Shown here piece after piece: positions 42,336 to 54,300 of a DNA stretch of 64,000 nt. Each line of letters begins with the position of its first letter. Positions within the stretch are counted from its first letter, which is position 1. Position numbers and translations under genes: made by a program. The stretch is from assembly GCA_921293015.1 (NCBI GenBank), contig OV121081.1:63505022-63569021 (forward strand), read 5' to 3'. Origin of the DNA: Phorcus lineatus (taxonomy: Eukaryota > Mollusca > Gastropoda > Trochida > Trochidae). The notes under the pieces were generated by a model that was not told the DNA's origin, did not search any database, and saw only the letters and a program-made list of their open reading frames with translations.

Positions 42336-45300
42336 CTGCAATGAGAGGAACAAAAGCTTTGAATAGATTCAAAACAAGCAAGCATGACTTTCTTGCCAAG
42401 CTCACAGATTTCCATTTTCTTCTGAAACTATCAAACTAATACAGTGACAGTCCTAGAAACAACTAGACCGCCTAGAAACATGCAAAACACTACAGCTCTG
42501 GAAGGACTAATGATAAACTATCGGGCACAGTAACTTATCAGCACACTATCACAATTAAACAAATAAACCCATATAAGCTAAGCACATTATTAATTCCTTG
42601 TTGATACAATGAACATTTTATTCTTCACTCTGAAATAACCAGTTTTGAGTCTAGACATTCAAGGTGCAAGTACAACAGTTGTCTAGATGAAGCTGCCACA
42701 GCATCGAGAGGATTGAACTTGACAAGGTCTATAACGCTAACCACTGCAGTTATTATCCACCTGAGAGGGAAGTAAACAACCAATCACAATCAACATGATA
42801 ATATGAAATGATAAGGATATGTTTTGATAAAGGTCAAGGTTGTTGCTCACCTGCCCTGCTTGAGTGGAGACCCCATGGGAGGTTTGACAGGACTGGGCTT
42901 GCCAAGTGAATAGGAAATCTCAGAGTCCTCCCTGCAAGTAGACTTGATGGTGAGGAACAGAAGTGGTGCTGAAATCATCTACTTTCATTATCTTGATAAA
43001 TAAATTAATGTCAGATTTTACTTAAAGTTATCAACCCAGGTAACAAATTGTGGATACAAGACGAGACTTAATTGAAAATGTGAAAGTGAATACATATAAA
43101 CTTTGAAATTCTTTCAAATGGAGGGAATGAGCTTGTCTGTTGTTCAAGTATGGGATGTTGAACTACAGCAGTTCGGAATGAAGTGAATGTAATGTACAAT
43201 ACAGATAGAAATGAAAATGTTAAATGACCTAAAGGCACAACTCACTTGAGAGGCTGGAACCTGCTGGAGACTTCAGGGTCGGACACAGATGGAATGATGT
43301 CAAATTCATCAGGAGGGGAGGTGGACCCCTGGAACAAAATACTGAGGTGAGTCCAAAGGTCATTCTCAGAACACAGCTCTAATCTATTACAGACCACTTC
43401 TATAATCTATTACAGACCACTTCTATAATCTATTCACAGAATACTTCTATAATCTATTACAGAATACTTCTATAATCTATTCACAGAATACTTCTATAAT
43501 CTATTCACAGAATACTTCTATTATCTATTCACAGAATACTTCTATTATCTATTACAGACCACTTCTATAATCTATTTACAGAATACTTCTATAATCTATT
43601 CACAGAATACTTCTATAATCCATTCAAGGACGTGTCTCTAATTTATTACAGAACACTTATCTAAACTAGTAACGGCTAACTCCTTTTGTGCTGATAACCT
43701 CAACGTTAACAAATTTTTAAAAATTTCCTCCATTTCTCAAGAAGGATCCTGTTTCAAACTCTGAAATTGGTGTCTTTTTAATTCATATAAGATTTTCAAC
43801 TTACAAGCTTATGATAGTATACATCTGTTTTGGAGGTTCTATAGTTGATAGCACTTACCCTGGCTGGAAACTCTCTACGGACAGCGTTGTTTAGCTCCTG
43901 TTTGAGACTGGCCACATGTTTGCGATGTGAGTCTATCTCATCCTCCAGTGAGTGGATCTTGGACATAGCTTGGTGCTGCGTGTCGATGAATGTTCCTACC
44001 AGGTTCTGTGCACAGTAGACATAACATCAGATATCTATATTCACTTTGGAATTATTGTTTACTTGAGGGATTGCACAGAAATCAATTGATAATAAATGAA
44101 TGAATAATAATGAAATGAATGACCTGCTGTCTTTTTGTCATTCAATCAATACAACTTCATAGTGAGGCAATAAGAGGCTTTCATTGTATCATCTTCCGTG
44201 ACTCATTTCATACAGCAAGGAAGAAATAAAACCTTGTCAATTGGCTATCATGGAATAAAAACTTTGCGCAGCATCTATTGCTTATCTTGGCTATCTTGTT
44301 TCCCTAAATTCAAGATTGAATGGGCTTGTAATCAAACTATCTCATCCTTGTATCAGTGTGGAAATGTTTTTTGAGGGCTCAATATTTCATTTAAAGAAAT
44401 AACATAAAGTCCTGGGCCTCCTTTCACAAAGCAACCTTTACTAAGGTTAACCTTAACTCCCATTCTTTAACATTGCACTAAGGTTACCTTAAAGACTTAC
44501 GATCACCTTAGGGCTTTGTGAAAGGAGGCCCTGTAAAGCAGGGATGCTGGTGCCCGTGAGCAAGAGGATGCTACTTCTAGGAGGCGTGAAGAACCCACCT
44601 GACAAGCGATGAGCTCTGGTCCAGCCTTGCCGACATCAGACGGGATGAAGTCTACGTTTAGGAGAGCCTTGGAGAGGTCGACCTCGTGTCGGCTGGGGTC
44701 CTTCAGGAGCGACATCTGCTGCTTCACCTGGTGGGGGAAATAAGGGGTTCAAGACTCTGTCCAAAGTCAATTACTTACTTAATTCAACCTTAGAATAACA
44801 AAAGATAATAATGAAAGATCTGCCTCAAATCCTTAAAAAAATGTTTTTTTCTAGCAACCATCTTTCCTATATTTCAACAATAGTTGATAAAGAGAAAAAT
44901 GAAGATCTCACCTGAAGAAGGGCACCTTCAACAGACTTCAGGTAGCGGGTCAAGATCTCCTTATCCCTGGAAACATATACAAATTTAACAAAATTACAAG
45001 TATTTTGTATATTTATGAATGATACCTACCTCTAAACTTATATGCATTTCCTTGTTTGTTTACAAACATCTAACAACAAATCAAACCTTAATCAAGTCTA
45101 GAATTAGACATGTTAAACTTTTCGAGTCTCCACACTTCGCACGTGCAAATCGTGCCCCATGTCACCCACAATCCTTCAGTCCTATCGAGCTCACTTTCTT
45201 GTAGAAGGCAACCCAATAAGCTGATATCCGATCCGTGGGGAGGACAGGGCGGGTTCCAAACTATAAGTTTAGAGGTAGGTATCATTCATAAATATACAAA

Positions 45301-48300
45301 ATACTTGTAATTTTGTTAAATTTCTTTCATTCACTACCTCTAAACTTATATGCAGATTTCCACAGATCGGTGGAGGGTAGGATATCAGCTAGTGATGCTG
45401 GAGACTCAAAAAGAGTAACTGCCTTTAACCAAAAAACAGAGGTCGCGAGAACCAAGTTCCTGCTAAACCAAGTAATGGTAGGCTGGCCTAGGCAGTCGTG
45501 GATTTACAACCGTTAACTGCGGTCGGCCAACATAGGATTTCTCAGCGAGAAGGAGGAACTCCGTCCTTACAACCTCTTTCCAATCAAGAGTTGTAATTAC
45601 CTATGTTACTGCTTGGAGGCCTGGACTGCACCGGCTGCCACAAATGGTCCCAGTTGATGAAGTCCTTGGAGGTCAGATTGGACATCCCTCAGATAGAAAG
45701 TTGAGAAGGTCGTTGACGAGGCCCAGTATCCAGCAGAGATGACGTCCTCGACCGAGGCAGAGTGCCACAGGGGGGCTGACGTAGCCCAGGCTCTAATTTC
45801 ATGCGCAGACACCTTACCAAATATCGGCGGAGACGTCGCAGATTTATGGTAAGCTGCCTTAATCGTCTTTTTCAGCCATGCTGAAACTGTGTTTTTCGTA
45901 ATGTCCTTAATGGAAGAAGGGAGACATGGTAGAAAAAGCCTATGTCTACCCCTTCTAAAGAACTTGGTCCTGGTCAGGTACTCCCTAAGAGAACGAACTG
46001 GACAGAGAAGAAGATCCTTTTCCATGCCGTCTGATAGAGCAACGGACAGAGCCAGAACAGAGAAGCATCTTCTTCCCAACGGCCCAACTGTCGACTTCTG
46101 ATTTTTTGCCACGAAACCGGGAAGGGTAGTAAGGGATACGGACTGCCAGTCTTTAGCATGCGTCATGGTAGAATGGTCTAAAGCATGTAACTCTGACACC
46201 CTGCTTGCAGAAGCCAGCGCCAACAGGAAAGCTGTCTTCCAAGACAAAAACTGCAGGGAAACCTCTTTGATAGGCTCAAACGGATCTGACAGCAGAGCGG
46301 ACAACACCACCGACAGATTCCACTTAAGCTGAAACTTGGGAGTCTTCAGATCCTCTAACTGAAACGATCTGGACAAGCGATGAATGGTCTGGTCCCTTGA
46401 CAAATCGACTCCTTGTAAAGCTAAGGCAGTTGTTAAAGCCGATTTGTAGCCATCGATTGTTCCCGCCTTCAACTTCTTCTCCTTCCTCAGAAAGAGCAAG
46501 AACTCAGCGACGAGTGGGATGGAGATAGCAGCATCAGACTGGAATTGCTGCTTCCACTCGGTGAATTTACTGTATCTGCAGTCATAGAGGGCAGAAGTCG
46601 AAGACCTGAGGCCTCCCCGAACTGCTTCTGCGACTTCTTGAGAAAACCCACTTCTCCTGAGGTTACGTTCGATAACCTCCAGGCGTGCAGATGTAGAGAC
46701 TCGGGGTTTCGATGAAACCTGTCGGACCTTGGCTGTCTCAGTAAGGTTTGAAACACTGGCAGCTCCACCGCCGGATGGGTTGACGACATCAACAGATCTG
46801 GATACCAAGGACGATTGGGCCAGGCTGGAGCAATCAGAATGATGACGCAGCTGTGACGTCTTGCCTTCTCCAAGACTGCTGGAACCAGCGCTGGTGGAGG
46901 GAAGGCGTAAGCAAGAAGACCGTCCCAGCTGATTGACATTGCGTCTACGGCGAAAGCCCGTGGATCCGGAACCGGACTGACGTAGACTGGAAGCTGCGTG
47001 TTCAGACTGGTCGCGAACAGATCTATCATCGGAGATTCCCACAAGTCTGCCACCATCTGGAAGGATGTGGGATGAAGAGTCCATTCTGTTGACTGGATCT
47101 GGTTCGGCCGTGACAAGCTGTCTGCTAGAACATTCAGATGACCTGGAATGTGTCTGGCCCTGATCTGACACCCGTTCTTGTCGATCCAGTCGAACAGTTG
47201 AAGACAAAGATCTAACATCCCCTTTGATCGTGTCCCTCCTTGACGATTTACGTAGGCCACTACTGTCGTGTTGTCTGACGCCAACATTACCTTTTTCCCT
47301 CTCAACTGGTTCTGCCAGAACTGAAGAGATTTCCAGACAGCCAACATCTCCAACTGATTGATGTGAAGTGGCGCTTCTTCCCGAGACCAAGTGCCCTGAA
47401 ACATCTGGTCCATGAGGTGTGCACCCCAGCCCACAATGGACGCGTCTGTCACCAGCAGAACATCCTGCACAAAAGGGACCAGCTGAACTCCCTGCAGCAC
47501 GTTCTGGTCTTGAAACCACCAATGAAGAGAGCGAAGGATCTCTGGTGGAGGACAGCAAACAGTGGAAAGCTCGAGAGATCTCACGGAGTTGATCCAGCAC
47601 TGAAAGTGACGAAGTCTCAGCCTCCCCCTGTTGGTCAAATCCTGCATGCTCGTGAGTCTGCCCAACAGGGACATCCACTGCCTTAGGGTCTGGGGAGACT
47701 GAGCCATAGATCGTATCAAGTTCCGTGCTACCATTACCCTGTCCTCTGGAGGAAGAATCTTCGAGATTCCTGTGTCGAAGATGGCTCCGATGTATTTTAC
47801 CCTCTGGTTCGGAATGAAGTCGGACTTCTCCGGATGCACGATGAACCCCAGATGTTCCAAGGTAAAAACGGCAAGATCTCTGTTCTCCTCCAGACCCTGG
47901 TGAGACTGATCTGGCAACAGGAAGTCGTCTAGGTACCCGTGGATCCTGATGGACCTGGAGTGCAGAAAACTCAGTACCGGAGCTGTGATTCGAGTGAATA
48001 GCCAAGGGGCTATCGAGATCCCAAACGGAAGAACCTTGAACTGAAACAACCTGCCGTTGACTGCGAAACGAAGATACTTCTGCGACGCTGGATGAATTGG
48101 AACGTGGAGATATGCATCTCTCAGGTCTAACGAGACCATCCAGTCCCCTGGTCGTAGAGCCAGTTTCAGCGCCGGTATTGATTCCATCCTGAAGTGAGGC
48201 GGTCTCTGCAGGAAGTTCCGGTTCAAGTTCTTCAGGTCGATGATCATGCGCAGCTCGTCCGTGTCCTTCTTGGGTACAAGAAAGATTGGTGAATAAAACC

Positions 48301-51300
48301 CTTTGGAGACTGTCTTCGGATCCAGTTCTATCACAGCATCCTTCACCAACAGCTTCTGAATTGCCTCCTCTGCTGCCACCAGAGGAGGATCGGACAGATG
48401 AAAACGTGGACCCTCCGGAAAGAAGGTAACCGGAGGAAAAGAATGGAATATCAGACGATAGCCCTGAGAAACTACAGCTTGGGCCACTGAGTCCCCGAAG
48501 AGGGTGCCACTAAACAAAGGAGCCTGGTACAACTTCTCTTTTATCTTTGGGTCAGTATTCTGTGGCAGCTGCTTAATGTAAGCTGAACGTCTTAGCAGAG
48601 TTAACTGGGAGTCCATCCAGAGGAGATGACGATCGAGATCCAAGACGGCATCGCCTAACGAGTCGAAGAAGGCGTTGGCTGTGGCCAAGGACGAGAAGGG
48701 AACCGAAGTAGACCCCTTAGGGTCAGCAGAGTCCGGAATTGCCGGGAGTTGTCTAGCCGCAGTGGCCGCAAACCAATGAATATATGAGGAAGTTTGCATC
48801 GCTTTATGGATAGAAGTCTCCACCTCCTTGAGACGGCTATCGTTCACCTTTATCTGCTCCGAAGGCGTCCCCTTCCCCAACAGGTAGCGGAAGTTGTCAT
48901 CCAAAGAAGTTTCTTCTGCCTTGGTAAAGTTCGCATTATGAACTTTATAGGGAAACCCCCTGTAGAACGAGCTTCTAGATGGTTGCTTATCGAAGCCCAA
49001 CGAACCCACTCTCTCCGACAGTTGTGCCGCTAACTGGGCCGTGGAGTCTGGTGGAGGTAGAGACTTAGCCGCCGCAGGAACAGTCTTTGGAGCTCCCCTA
49101 CTGATGTCATTCTGTATGGGCTGCGTGGGAGCTGGAGGACGAGTCAAGTCTGGGAAGTGCCGGTAGACCTCGTCTATCTTCTCAAACCAGGATAAGCCCT
49201 GAAAGGGAGAGTCCATGGAGGCACCCTTCTTGTTTCTCTTGACTACAGTACCCGTCTGGGAGCCATAGAAAGAAATCTCAGGCGGATCCCGAAACTTCCT
49301 CTTGGAGCCTGAGCCGACGGACTGCTGGGAGACCTCTGGCCGCTGGTTGTCCACGGGCCGCTGGTTGTCCACGGACCGCTGGTTGTCCATGGGCCGCTGG
49401 TTGTCCATGGGCCGCTGGTTGTCCACGGCCCGCTGGTTGTCCACAGTCTGCTGGTTGTCCACAGGCCGCTGGTTTTCCACTGGCTGCTGGTTATCCATAG
49501 GCCGCTGGTTTTCCACTGGCTGCTTCCGGCCCCTGGGACGCCACTGGACTTCTTGGGAAGATGAGGATGACGACTTCTCATAGTCCACCAAACTGTTCTG
49601 GGAACGGTTGCGCTCAGTCGAAGAAGCAGAAGCTGTACTGGATGGCCCCTTGTCCGTGGCCTTGTCCCCCTCCGTCGGAAGAATGATGGGAAGCCGTCCC
49701 CTATCAGTACCCCTGGGGTTCCCATTGGTCTTCGTCTTGGTCACCCCCTTGGAGAACTTCCTGGCCGCCTCAGCCCCCTTTGTTGATAGTCTGTGGCCCT
49801 TCCTGGTCAACCTTGGGTCCCTGGATGACGGCGTGGGCAGCGCGGAATCAAATACAGATGGGGCGATGATAGAGATGGCATCTTCTGACTTCTCTTCACC
49901 CCCCCGCCGACCAGTTATGTGGGAGACTAAGTCTCGCCCTGGCGACGGGGTGAGCCTTTGCTCCTCCGGTACCACTCCTTCAGCTACCTCCGGAAGGCTC
50001 ATCAAGCGGTTCATCAATGGCAACATCTTCTGTGCCATCAATCTGAACTGGGCCAGATCCGCTGCCAGGTCCGTCTGGGGGGGGATGGAGACTGTAGAGG
50101 TCTTGGACGTCGCCTTCGCCAAGCTTCTCTTGCGTGCAGCCACATAAGCTTGGAAGACAGGTTCATCTAAGTCGGAGCAGAACTCGCAAGGCCGGTCGAA
50201 CGAGCAGTTGATCCCGTAACATCGTGGACAGCAAGGATGAGGATCAACCGCCGACATGAATTTATGGCACCCCTCACACTTCTTGGAGTTGCTCATGATA
50301 CTGTGAATAGTTAAGGAAAATCGTTAACACACAGGTAATCATGATACACAATATCAAGTATATATAAAAATGAAACATATATACCAAAGAAGTGATAAAT
50401 GTAGAAATAAGAATCATACATAGAAAACTACATATGAAAAAACATTGAAATAAAAAATAACCCTCAAGTGAAATTTAAACTTATAATTACACATAGAGGA
50501 GATACTAGAAATTAAATATAATAATTTAATTTCCTTACCAAAAATACACATTTTCCAACCCCAACTAAATCGTAAGGCTGGAGAATTGATAAAATATAAA
50601 AATCAAAAATTAAATTTAAACCCGAGTGTAACTTACAAACACGAGGGTCAAAATATATGTGAAAATGGAAGCGTCGTAAAATGCAAATCAACCGCATGAG
50701 AAAAGACGCTACATAGCGCGAATACACGCTACACAAAAAAACGAGAAGAAATACTCGAGAAGAAAATCGATAAATGGGCGGCTTACCATACCCGAATACC
50801 CGACAATCATTAAACGAGGTCAATAATACATAAAACATATTTAGCCAAACAATCGTAAAGCTAAATAAGAATTATTAGAATAGCAAAATTTAAAAATTCC
50901 CGTCACGTGTACGAACACGAGATACGAAGCACGCCATTTTGAAGTGCAACGAAGAATAAACTCCTCAACAAAAAAAGGAGAATAAATGAATATTTACAAT
51001 GTTGCATGTAAAAAAGATATATATGATAATCATAACGATACCAGGATACTGGAAACAGGGAAGTTTCGTAATTTAAAGGTAAGATTTCTCTCCGGTAGAC
51101 AGCAACGTCTTTGCAGGTTGCGTAACAACAAGAAAGTGAGCTCGATAGGACTGAAGGATTGTGGGTGACATGGGGCACGATTTGCACGTGCGAAGTGTGG
51201 AGACTCGAAAAGTTTAACATGTCTAATTCTAGACTTGATTAAGGTTTGATTTGTTGTTAGATGTTTGTAAACAAACAAGGAAATGCATATAAGTTTAGAG

Positions 51301-54300
51301 GTAGTGAATGAAAGAAATATATATATTTATATACATATACACACCACGTAACATTGTTGTATTTGGGTCACACTGTCTGCATTGGTATAGATTATTGTAC
51401 TTTTCTTCAGATTCAAACCCACACCTAAGAGGCATACAGCCATCTCTAACCAATTTCCTCTCGACAAGGCGATGTCATCTTAAATATAACAACGTTACGT
51501 TGTTCACTATCTAAATGGCATGTGTCTTTAAATACAAACAAGATCAGTATTCGCTGAGTATTAGTGCACAGTTGGATAATATCAAATAGGAGCCAAACAG
51601 ACCAAGAGACAAAAGAAAATAGACATGGTTGCTTCTCTGCTTGGCTCTCAAGGGTTATGGCAGTATAACGAATAACATAGCAACCACATTACGGCAAGTA
51701 AGTAAGTATACAACACAGTTAGAAATTCATGCCTTTTAAATAGAGAAATCTTAAAAAGTTATATTAGGTATTCCCCTATCCCCTTGCATGTCTCTGACAA
51801 ACATTCTCAAAGTCTTGTCACTATCATATCTATATATGATGAAAATCTACTGTTATTCCATTACATGAAAATAAACTACATGTATTTGACTTAAAAATGC
51901 TCTGCAGGTTGTATTGCATTTAAAGTTTCTTACCCTAATAAGACAAATATATATTAATAAAAATGTGTATGACCATATTTCAGACAGATGCGCTTCTCCC
52001 TCAACTGACCTGCTGGCTGTCTGGAGAGCACTCTCTGAGTCGGCCATGTTGCCCTGAGTCGACTTCTTGTCCATCTCAAGTTGAAGCACTTGCTTCTGGA
52101 GCTGACGGATTGACTGCTCTCTCCGCCGCAGTTCAACCTTAGCTTCTGACAACCCCTGGTGGAATACAAATTTGACAATGATGTCAATCATGTTTTCTTC
52201 TTGAAGCTGCAAATCAGCCACAAATCAGATCAAACCTTATACTTGTATCTCGCTGGGTTTCTGATCTGAGTGCTGCTCCAAAAGCTTATTGTTAGGTGGC
52301 CTTGTGTATGACCTTTGTCCATGACCTTTGTCGATGACCTTCCATGAATTCAAACAATGAGAGGCCTGCTATAATATCAAATCATGCAGGTGGTTTTCTG
52401 GCCTTGTCACTGATCAGAAAAAGTGTAAAAGTAAACTGTCAGGTCCCCTATAGAGCAGTCTTCAGATTGAAGTGATGTGATGTGAGGAGCCAGTGACAGT
52501 CTCTATTTGATATCAATCAGGTTAGCTATAGTTCCTTACACAAAAAACAATACTATCATGTACCTGTTGAAGCCTTATTTGACCACTGAAAACATAACAC
52601 ATGCACGTACCTGTACTGCCTCTGAGAGTGTGATCTCCTTGTCCATGCCCTGTGTAGCACACATGTCCAGCCTCAGTGTGAGCTCCTCCAGCTGTTGACT
52701 CTGCTCGTGCAGCAGATGCTGTGCCTGCTGCTCCCGTTGCAGTGCGCTGTTCAGCTCCTGACATACTCGGTCAAATTTCTCCAGTCTCACATACTTTGGG
52801 TTCTTGAATGGGAAAATACATTACAGTATTAGTGACTTCAGTGTCTATAACCAATCAAGCCATTAAGATAGGGAAGTGAATAGTAACTGACAATGATAAT
52901 CAATAAAGTTATTTACATCTTTTTCTTATTTCTTCTTATTTGTCATTCTCTGTATGTAAAAAGTAAGCTCACATGTTCCCTAGCATCAGCGATGTTGTCG
53001 AGAGAGGTGACAACATGTCCGACCTCAGCGACAACCTGCTGCTGAAGCTGCTCCACCTCAGCCACCAGATGGCGCCTCTCCGTCTCGGACCGGTGCAGTC
53101 TCTGCGTGAAGTCTAGAATGTGGTTCTGTAGGGCTATCATCAGGTCCTAGAAAAGAGGCAATACAGGCTGTTGAACACTTCCTTAAAATCTTATTACCTT
53201 TATCAATTTACCTTGTGCTGACACTTACTCAGTAACCATCCTGTGAGATCAGTTACAGACATGATTTGTCAGGATGAACTTGAGGAAGATAATCAAAATG
53301 AAATTCAAAATGAAATGGTTTATTTCAACAAAATATGTGTAAGGAGAAAGAACCTGTGAGGAAGCCAGTGTCTGCTTATCTGTGACGCTCAATCCATTGA
53401 GCGTGCGCCCCAGACAACGCCCAAGTCCCCTGATGAGAGAACCTCGCTCACGCAGTGCTCCCATTGGCTGTAGACTGATCCCCGGGAATTGGGGTGCTAA
53501 CTTATCCAGGAGCTTGCTGAATGAACTCCTTGCAGCACCGATCAGAGCTCTCGTCTCAACATCGCCCCCTGGTGGCAAGAGATCAAAGTGAAAATATATA
53601 TGAGAGGACAATGAGCATTGTTACATTTTGGGGATATGTCTGTTAGCACAGGGATGATTTATCACTTCTCTTTGTTCATTTGCTAGAATTTTTATCAAAA
53701 GTAATGATGTGAAAAAACACATATACATGTAAAACTGATTAAAAAAATAGTCAACCCATGTCCATTGTTAGGTCAAGATGTGAGGATTGCCAATTGTAAG
53801 TTTGTGGTCTCAATTCATGACAGGGAATGTTAAGATAATGTGTATCATTGATAATATTGTGATCAAAATATGATGTTTCCTTTGTCATACACACACTGAA
53901 CTTAAAGAAAAGGAAAATGAAGTCTAAGCTAGATTATATGCAGTCAACCGTTACCTACCTTTTTCTCTGACCTGTCCTGCGACCTCCAGGAAGTCTGCCA
54001 TGGCTGGCACCACGATGTCTGTGATGGAGTTTCCTGCCAGCCAGTCCAGCATGTGAGTCTCCCCGTGGCGACCCTCCTGCTCCTCCCCCTCCAACTCCTC
54101 TCGCCTCATCTCCTCCCCCCTGCCGGCAGGGGCACTCAGTCCTACACCTACAATATCCAGAGATATGAGTTCAATTGTGAAATCAGAATAGCCTTTTTAA
54201 ATGGAACTTTTTCCTTTTAGGCAAATGATAGAGACCACTGAAGGATGATAACCTCTACATTCTGAGTGAGGGAATTGTAGTCACAGACTCTCGTAATAGT

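Follow-up and report, generated by a model that had tools for sequence, protein, structure and literature searches.

A DIRS1-like retrotransposon, probably young, at the 3' end of an intron in Phorcus lineatus, and the inverted repeat that accompanies it

DIRS1-like elements and the copy in the window

DIRS1-like elements are described in PMC3266345 as having a right extension and two ICRs that overlap on a 3-bp junction (AAT being the commonest), and as making no target-site duplication. In the published replication model (PMC3266345, PMC5633606), the two outer ends of the element base-pair with the ICR, which acts as template for the circle junction; this template role is treated in PMC5633606. 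Here, we describe an element of this kind in the window, by which we mean the whole analysed stretch of 64,000 nucleotides from P. lineatus (contig OV121081.1, assembly GCA_921293015.1). It lies in intron 14 of a coiled-coil gene on the minus strand. Its ends were set by comparing 20 other copies, and its parts are as follows.

44985..51314, minus strand: DIRS1-like retrotransposon with ITRs, ICRs and ORFs, 6330 bp when the crossover bases are not counted; the 3' (right) end is 44985
44981..44984, no strand: AAAT at the right end, comprising the 3-bp circular junction (44982-44984) and one host base; varies between copies
51315..51318, no strand: AAAT at the left end, identical in 18 of the 19 other copies readable there
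44985..45025, minus strand: right extension, 41 nt, outside the perfect ITR; spans the branch-point zone of the acceptor
45026..45202, minus strand: right ITR, 177 nt, 100% complementary to 51128-51304
51128..51304, minus strand: left ITR, 177 nt, 100% complementary to 45026-45202
45262..45319, minus strand: right ICR, 58 nt, exact complement of 44985-45042
45320..45323, minus strand: circular junction within the ICR, ATTT on the plus strand; constant across the 20 other copies read
45324..45354, minus strand: left ICR, 31 nt, exact complement of 51284-51314
46487..50296, minus strand: gag-RT-RNase H ORF of 1269 aa, uninterrupted by stops, with a YLDD motif
45606..48005, minus strand: putative tyrosine recombinase frame, with a mechanical start at TTG; overlaps the pol ORF

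The insert in intron 14 is a DIRS1-like retrotransposon. It has ITRs, ICRs that are complementary to both outer ends and join on a short junction, and both RT and RNase H. In pol, the Pfam matches are to RVT_1 (3.6e-22) and to RT_RNaseH (6.9e-5; 23.4 bits, slightly under the curated 24.8). The putative recombinase frame matches Phage_integrase with an E-value of 0.0086 and 16.3 bits, below the Pfam cut-off of 27.1, and the motif residues R, HxxR and Y were spotted in it by eye. As to a methyltransferase, a general Pfam search of the element gave just RT, RNase H and one spurious repeat match. The gag part contains an 18-bp minisatellite (49281-49560), the source of a Pfam “Cementoin” match.

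DIRS1-like elements belong to the DIRS order of tyrosine-recombinase retrotransposons. The features shared with those of PMC3266345, among them LgDIRS, AcaDIRS and SkoDIRS, are the ITRs, the right extension, two ICRs complementary to the ends and joined on a 3-bp junction (AAT), ATT termini and the lack of a target-site duplication. Its ICRs (31 and 58 bp, plus the junction) fall within the ranges given in Table 3 of PMC3266345 (24-110 bp for left and 36-89 bp for right ICRs), and at 6330 bp it slightly exceeds the longest of the 28 elements there (6283 bp). The putative recombinase frame and pol share a long open overlap of about 1.5 kb (46487-48005); in PMC3266345, such an overlap is recorded in half of the elements, none from Mollusca. 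The minisatellite in gag sets the element apart from those described in PMC3266345. Further, whereas Dictyostelium DIRS-1 is clustered at centromeres, the present copy is inserted in the intron of a gene. It belongs to a standard DIRS1-like family, and its insertion is unusual by position only.

Other copies and the origin of the 62-bp repeat

The assembly (957.8 Mb, 74 contigs) was searched for copies of the family. The right end returned 185 candidates, of which 40 were scored, all matching over 338 or more of the 343 bases at 99-100%; the left end returned 219, of which 40 were likewise scored. Besides the copy in the window, 20 more were read at the right end, 19 of them at the left end too (the stretch taken for the remaining one, L010/L035, missed it). 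Pairing between the ICR and the right end is present in all 20, with the 58 bases exact in 19 and a single mismatch in L023, and the junction within the ICR is AAAT in every one. Of the 19 left ends, 18 have AAAT directly after them and one has AAAC. The trinucleotide before the right end, by comparison, varies among the 20: AAC (6), ATT (6), AAT (3), AAA (2), GTT (2) and GAT (1). The four bases at the two ends are unequal in 15 of the 19 copies readable at both (equal in 4), and there is therefore no target-site duplication; in the window copy they are equal (AAAT). Integration appears to have a polarity, in that the element's AAAT is kept at the left end (18/19) and the crossover bases at the right vary and resemble target bases.

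These comparisons explain a feature that had drawn attention in the first-pass annotation, namely a perfect 62-bp inverted repeat beside the splice site. The repeat is real: its arms (44981-45042 and 45262-45323) are 62 nt long, 100% complementary and 219 nt apart. A chance origin is ruled out by the exactness of the arms and by an expectation, roughly calculated, of about 2e-28 for a repeat of that length in 9 kb. The repeat is not special to this site. Since positions 44981-44984 vary between copies, the 62 nt resolve into 58 bp of element plus four bases (the 3-bp junction and 1 host bp) that happen to equal the junction. What remains is the ordinary pairing of right terminus and ICR in DIRS1-like elements, and an arm of 58-62 bp is unexceptional because the right ICRs of Table 3 in PMC3266345 span 36-89 bp. 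A hairpin formed specially at this gene can be rejected, as every other copy read carries the same pairing.

The first-pass annotation had also placed the end of the element 14 bp from the acceptor. It was right about the closeness but not about the exact end: the invariant end in the 20 copies (TTAACA...) lies at 44985, which leaves 15-18 nt of host sequence, AG included, between the element and exon 15.

A constant ICR junction together with variable bases at the right end is what one would expect of a junction templated by the ICR rather than by the ends. The copy comparison hence backs the old DIRS model. In a comparison of 21 copies at their right side (1.3-2.3 kb), the mean pairwise divergence is 0.21% and the maximum 0.52%; such low values point to a recent burst of this family.

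The host gene and the acceptor of exon 15

The minus strand from 63945 to 42269 can be read as 21 exons separated by GT-AG introns, giving 1024 codons free of stops and then a stop codon. The exons were chosen by eye, with frame and borders checked afterward; the 5' part of the gene is beyond the window, and the model lacks the gene start. The gene may be CCDC171, as it is named in the first-pass annotation; Pfam searches of the product gave weak matches only (0.11 and 0.28), below the cut-off. The following parts of the model surround the insertion.

52010..52155, minus strand: exon 14, followed by the donor GTCAGT
44967..52009, minus strand: intron 14, 7043 nt when filled, 709 nt minus the element and one AAAT
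44967-44968, minus strand: native acceptor AG of exon 15
44912..44966, minus strand: exon 15, 55 nt, in frame; AG/G joins exons 14 and 15
44599..44727, minus strand: exon 16
44994, minus strand: best candidate branch A within the element near the acceptor (gTAAT, matching yUnAy at 4 of 5 positions), 27 nt before the acceptor's G; a weak candidate, by motif match only

The exon at 44966-44912, its AG and the donor after 52010, all proposed in the first-pass annotation, fit this stop-free model, and the element is indeed in sense orientation, because its ORFs and the gene are on the same strand. Two side observations concern the surrounding sequence. The acceptor of exon 13 in our by-eye model (52802-52803) reads CAAG instead of CAG or TAG. 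In the intron flank, 51343-51404 and 51473-51541 have short dispersed matches across the assembly, some as inverted pairs, and resemble the ends of a small repeat.

To score the acceptor, we derived a PWM from this one gene's 20 other acceptors, and the empty intron end was reconstructed by joining both host flanks. The filled site scores 10.33, the fifth best of 21, against 10.55 for the empty site. The two intron ends differ only upstream of about -18/-19, and the last 18 nt are kept. The polypyrimidine stretch and the AG are intact, and the branch-point zone has been replaced by the element; the usual branch-point window (44985-45008) is, as had been claimed, element DNA. The idea that the insertion bears on splicing is supported only in part: everything upstream of about -18 has been exchanged, but the acceptor itself scores the same with and without the element. 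In the filled site, a strict yUnAy motif lies 49 nt before the AG, in addition to gTAAT at 27 nt; the empty site offers only GTTAC, at 48 nt. The scan has little power, because strict matches with no intervening AG are present in just 7 of the 20 other acceptors.

There is no sign that the family prefers 3' splice sites in the small sample of 20 other copies, as none of the 69 AGs within about 62 nt of their right ends attains the native score of 10.33 (the best reaches 8.57). Translation of the flanks of three copies (L020, L023 and L024) revealed one clear exon, in L024 (G000:C1:10419915-10428914, right end at C1:10426415). The exon is 162 nt long, encodes a match to the nucleoside-transporter Gate domain (PF07670, 2.6e-8) and begins 115 nt downstream of the copy, which is inserted in the sense direction; unlike the window site, this insertion retains the host's own branch-point zone.

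Competing RNA structures and the fate of the acceptor

Vienna folds, which admit no pseudoknots and ignore co-transcriptional order, predict two different states for this intron end. When 45400-44912 is folded locally, the zone from -55 to -16 has a mean P(unpaired) of 0.002, and the candidate branch A is at 0.002 as well; the same zone has values of 0.17-0.57 at 19 other acceptors of the gene model and 0.235 at the empty site. However, the left ITR, 5.9 kb upstream, is an alternative partner for the right ITR, and their predicted duplex amounts to -330 kcal/mol, versus -86 for the ICR arm. When a piece of the left terminus was joined via 60 A, the P(unpaired) of the zone rose to 0.396, and inclusion of the left terminus gave -409.5 for the joint fold versus -184.7 plus -20.2 for the separate ones. 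In the full fold (51400-44912), the ITR stem forms over 177 of 177 positions, no ICR base is paired with the right end, and 44994 is unpaired; of the tract leading up to the AG, positions 44971-44981 pair with 51318-51328. By our estimate, the ITR stem and the ICR hairpin should largely exclude each other, because together they would make a pseudoknot in which 59 nt cannot span a stem of 177 bp. Transcription order could still favour the local ICR hairpin. The burial of the branch-point zone proposed in the first-pass annotation is thus borne out by the local fold but vanishes from the nested optimum once the left ITR is present; hiding of the branch point in a hairpin is possible, though short of established.

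We consider it likely, with a probability of roughly 0.7, that a young DIRS1-like element inserted near the 3' end of intron 14, that the repeat serves the element, and that splicing still uses the native acceptor at least partly. Integration would have come about by crossover, carried out by the tyrosine recombinase at an AAT/AAAT site that lay 15-18 nt short of the intron's 3' end. It would have swapped out the branch-point zone while sparing the polypyrimidine stretch and the AG. The 62-bp repeat, being the right terminus facing the ICR, presumably has a role in replication of the element and none for the gene. The branch point is probably an A in the right extension, with 44994 the best candidate, or one upstream of that extension. 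We favour continued use of the acceptor because the insertion leaves its score unaltered and the ICR hairpin loses out to the long ITR stem.

The serious rival, unlikely in our estimation but by no means negligible, is damage to the gene by the insertion: with the only available branch points sequestered in the ICR hairpin, exon 15 would be skipped, or intron 14 would be retained. The near-total pairing of the zone and of the candidate A in the local fold speaks for this, and sequestration of a branch point in RNA structure is reported to inhibit splicing and to cause exon skipping in model pre-mRNAs (PMC2275289). In the theophylline-aptamer constructs of that study, the branch point was likewise hidden in a stem, but one that was ligand-controlled and tested; the stem at the window site is predicted only and is disputed by the competing ITR stem. 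The consequences would be substantial, as skipping of exon 15 brings a stop one codon past the junction and removes the last 187 codons of the model, and retention of intron 14 adds codons until a stop inside it. The left ITR argues against this outcome: it wins in the nested optimum, where 44994 is unpaired, and the stem and the hairpin would probably not coexist.

An outcome that we deem improbable is that the insertion gives rise to chimeric transcripts through cryptic acceptors in the element, exonisation or an end of transcription within it. Among the 471 AGs of intron 14, seven equal or exceed the native acceptor in score, a cryptic acceptor at 45459 (11.7) and a donor at 45029 (10.3) could bound an exon of about 430 nt, and the right extension holds the hexamer variants CATAAA (45017) and AATATA (45013). 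These cryptic sites are string matches only, and the sense strand of the element has no AATAAA and a single ATTAAA (50530), near its 5' end. Quite speculative, and to our minds very improbable, is the notion that the two exclusive foldings form a bistable switch, with splicing dependent on timely transcription and pairing of the left terminus, and that the right end of this family (gUAAU plus a U-rich tail) is a portable branch-point module that would make sense insertions next to an AG tolerable. Finally, an assembly artefact or a pseudogene copy, which would make the splice site irrelevant, is the least probable reading: the locus does rest on one assembly, but the DNA of exons 15 and 16 (44590-44984) matches the assembly only at its own place, the upstream flank (51322-52300) does so at full length only there (42 other matches are short repeat pieces), the gene model is open over 21 exons, and the junctions resemble those of other copies. 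The assembly yielded no empty allele or second copy of the gene, and the titles and abstract openings covered by a literature search held no case of a DIRS insertion affecting splicing, which leaves the absence of such a case unproven.

This locus shows ordinary DIRS anatomy at an unlucky or a tolerated position. The striking inverted repeat near a splice site is replication hardware of the element, which corrects the earlier reading of it. The site offers a clean natural test of how near to a 3' splice site an insertion can come: the intron retains its final 18 nt, everything farther upstream has been exchanged, and the competing structures have limits given to the single base.
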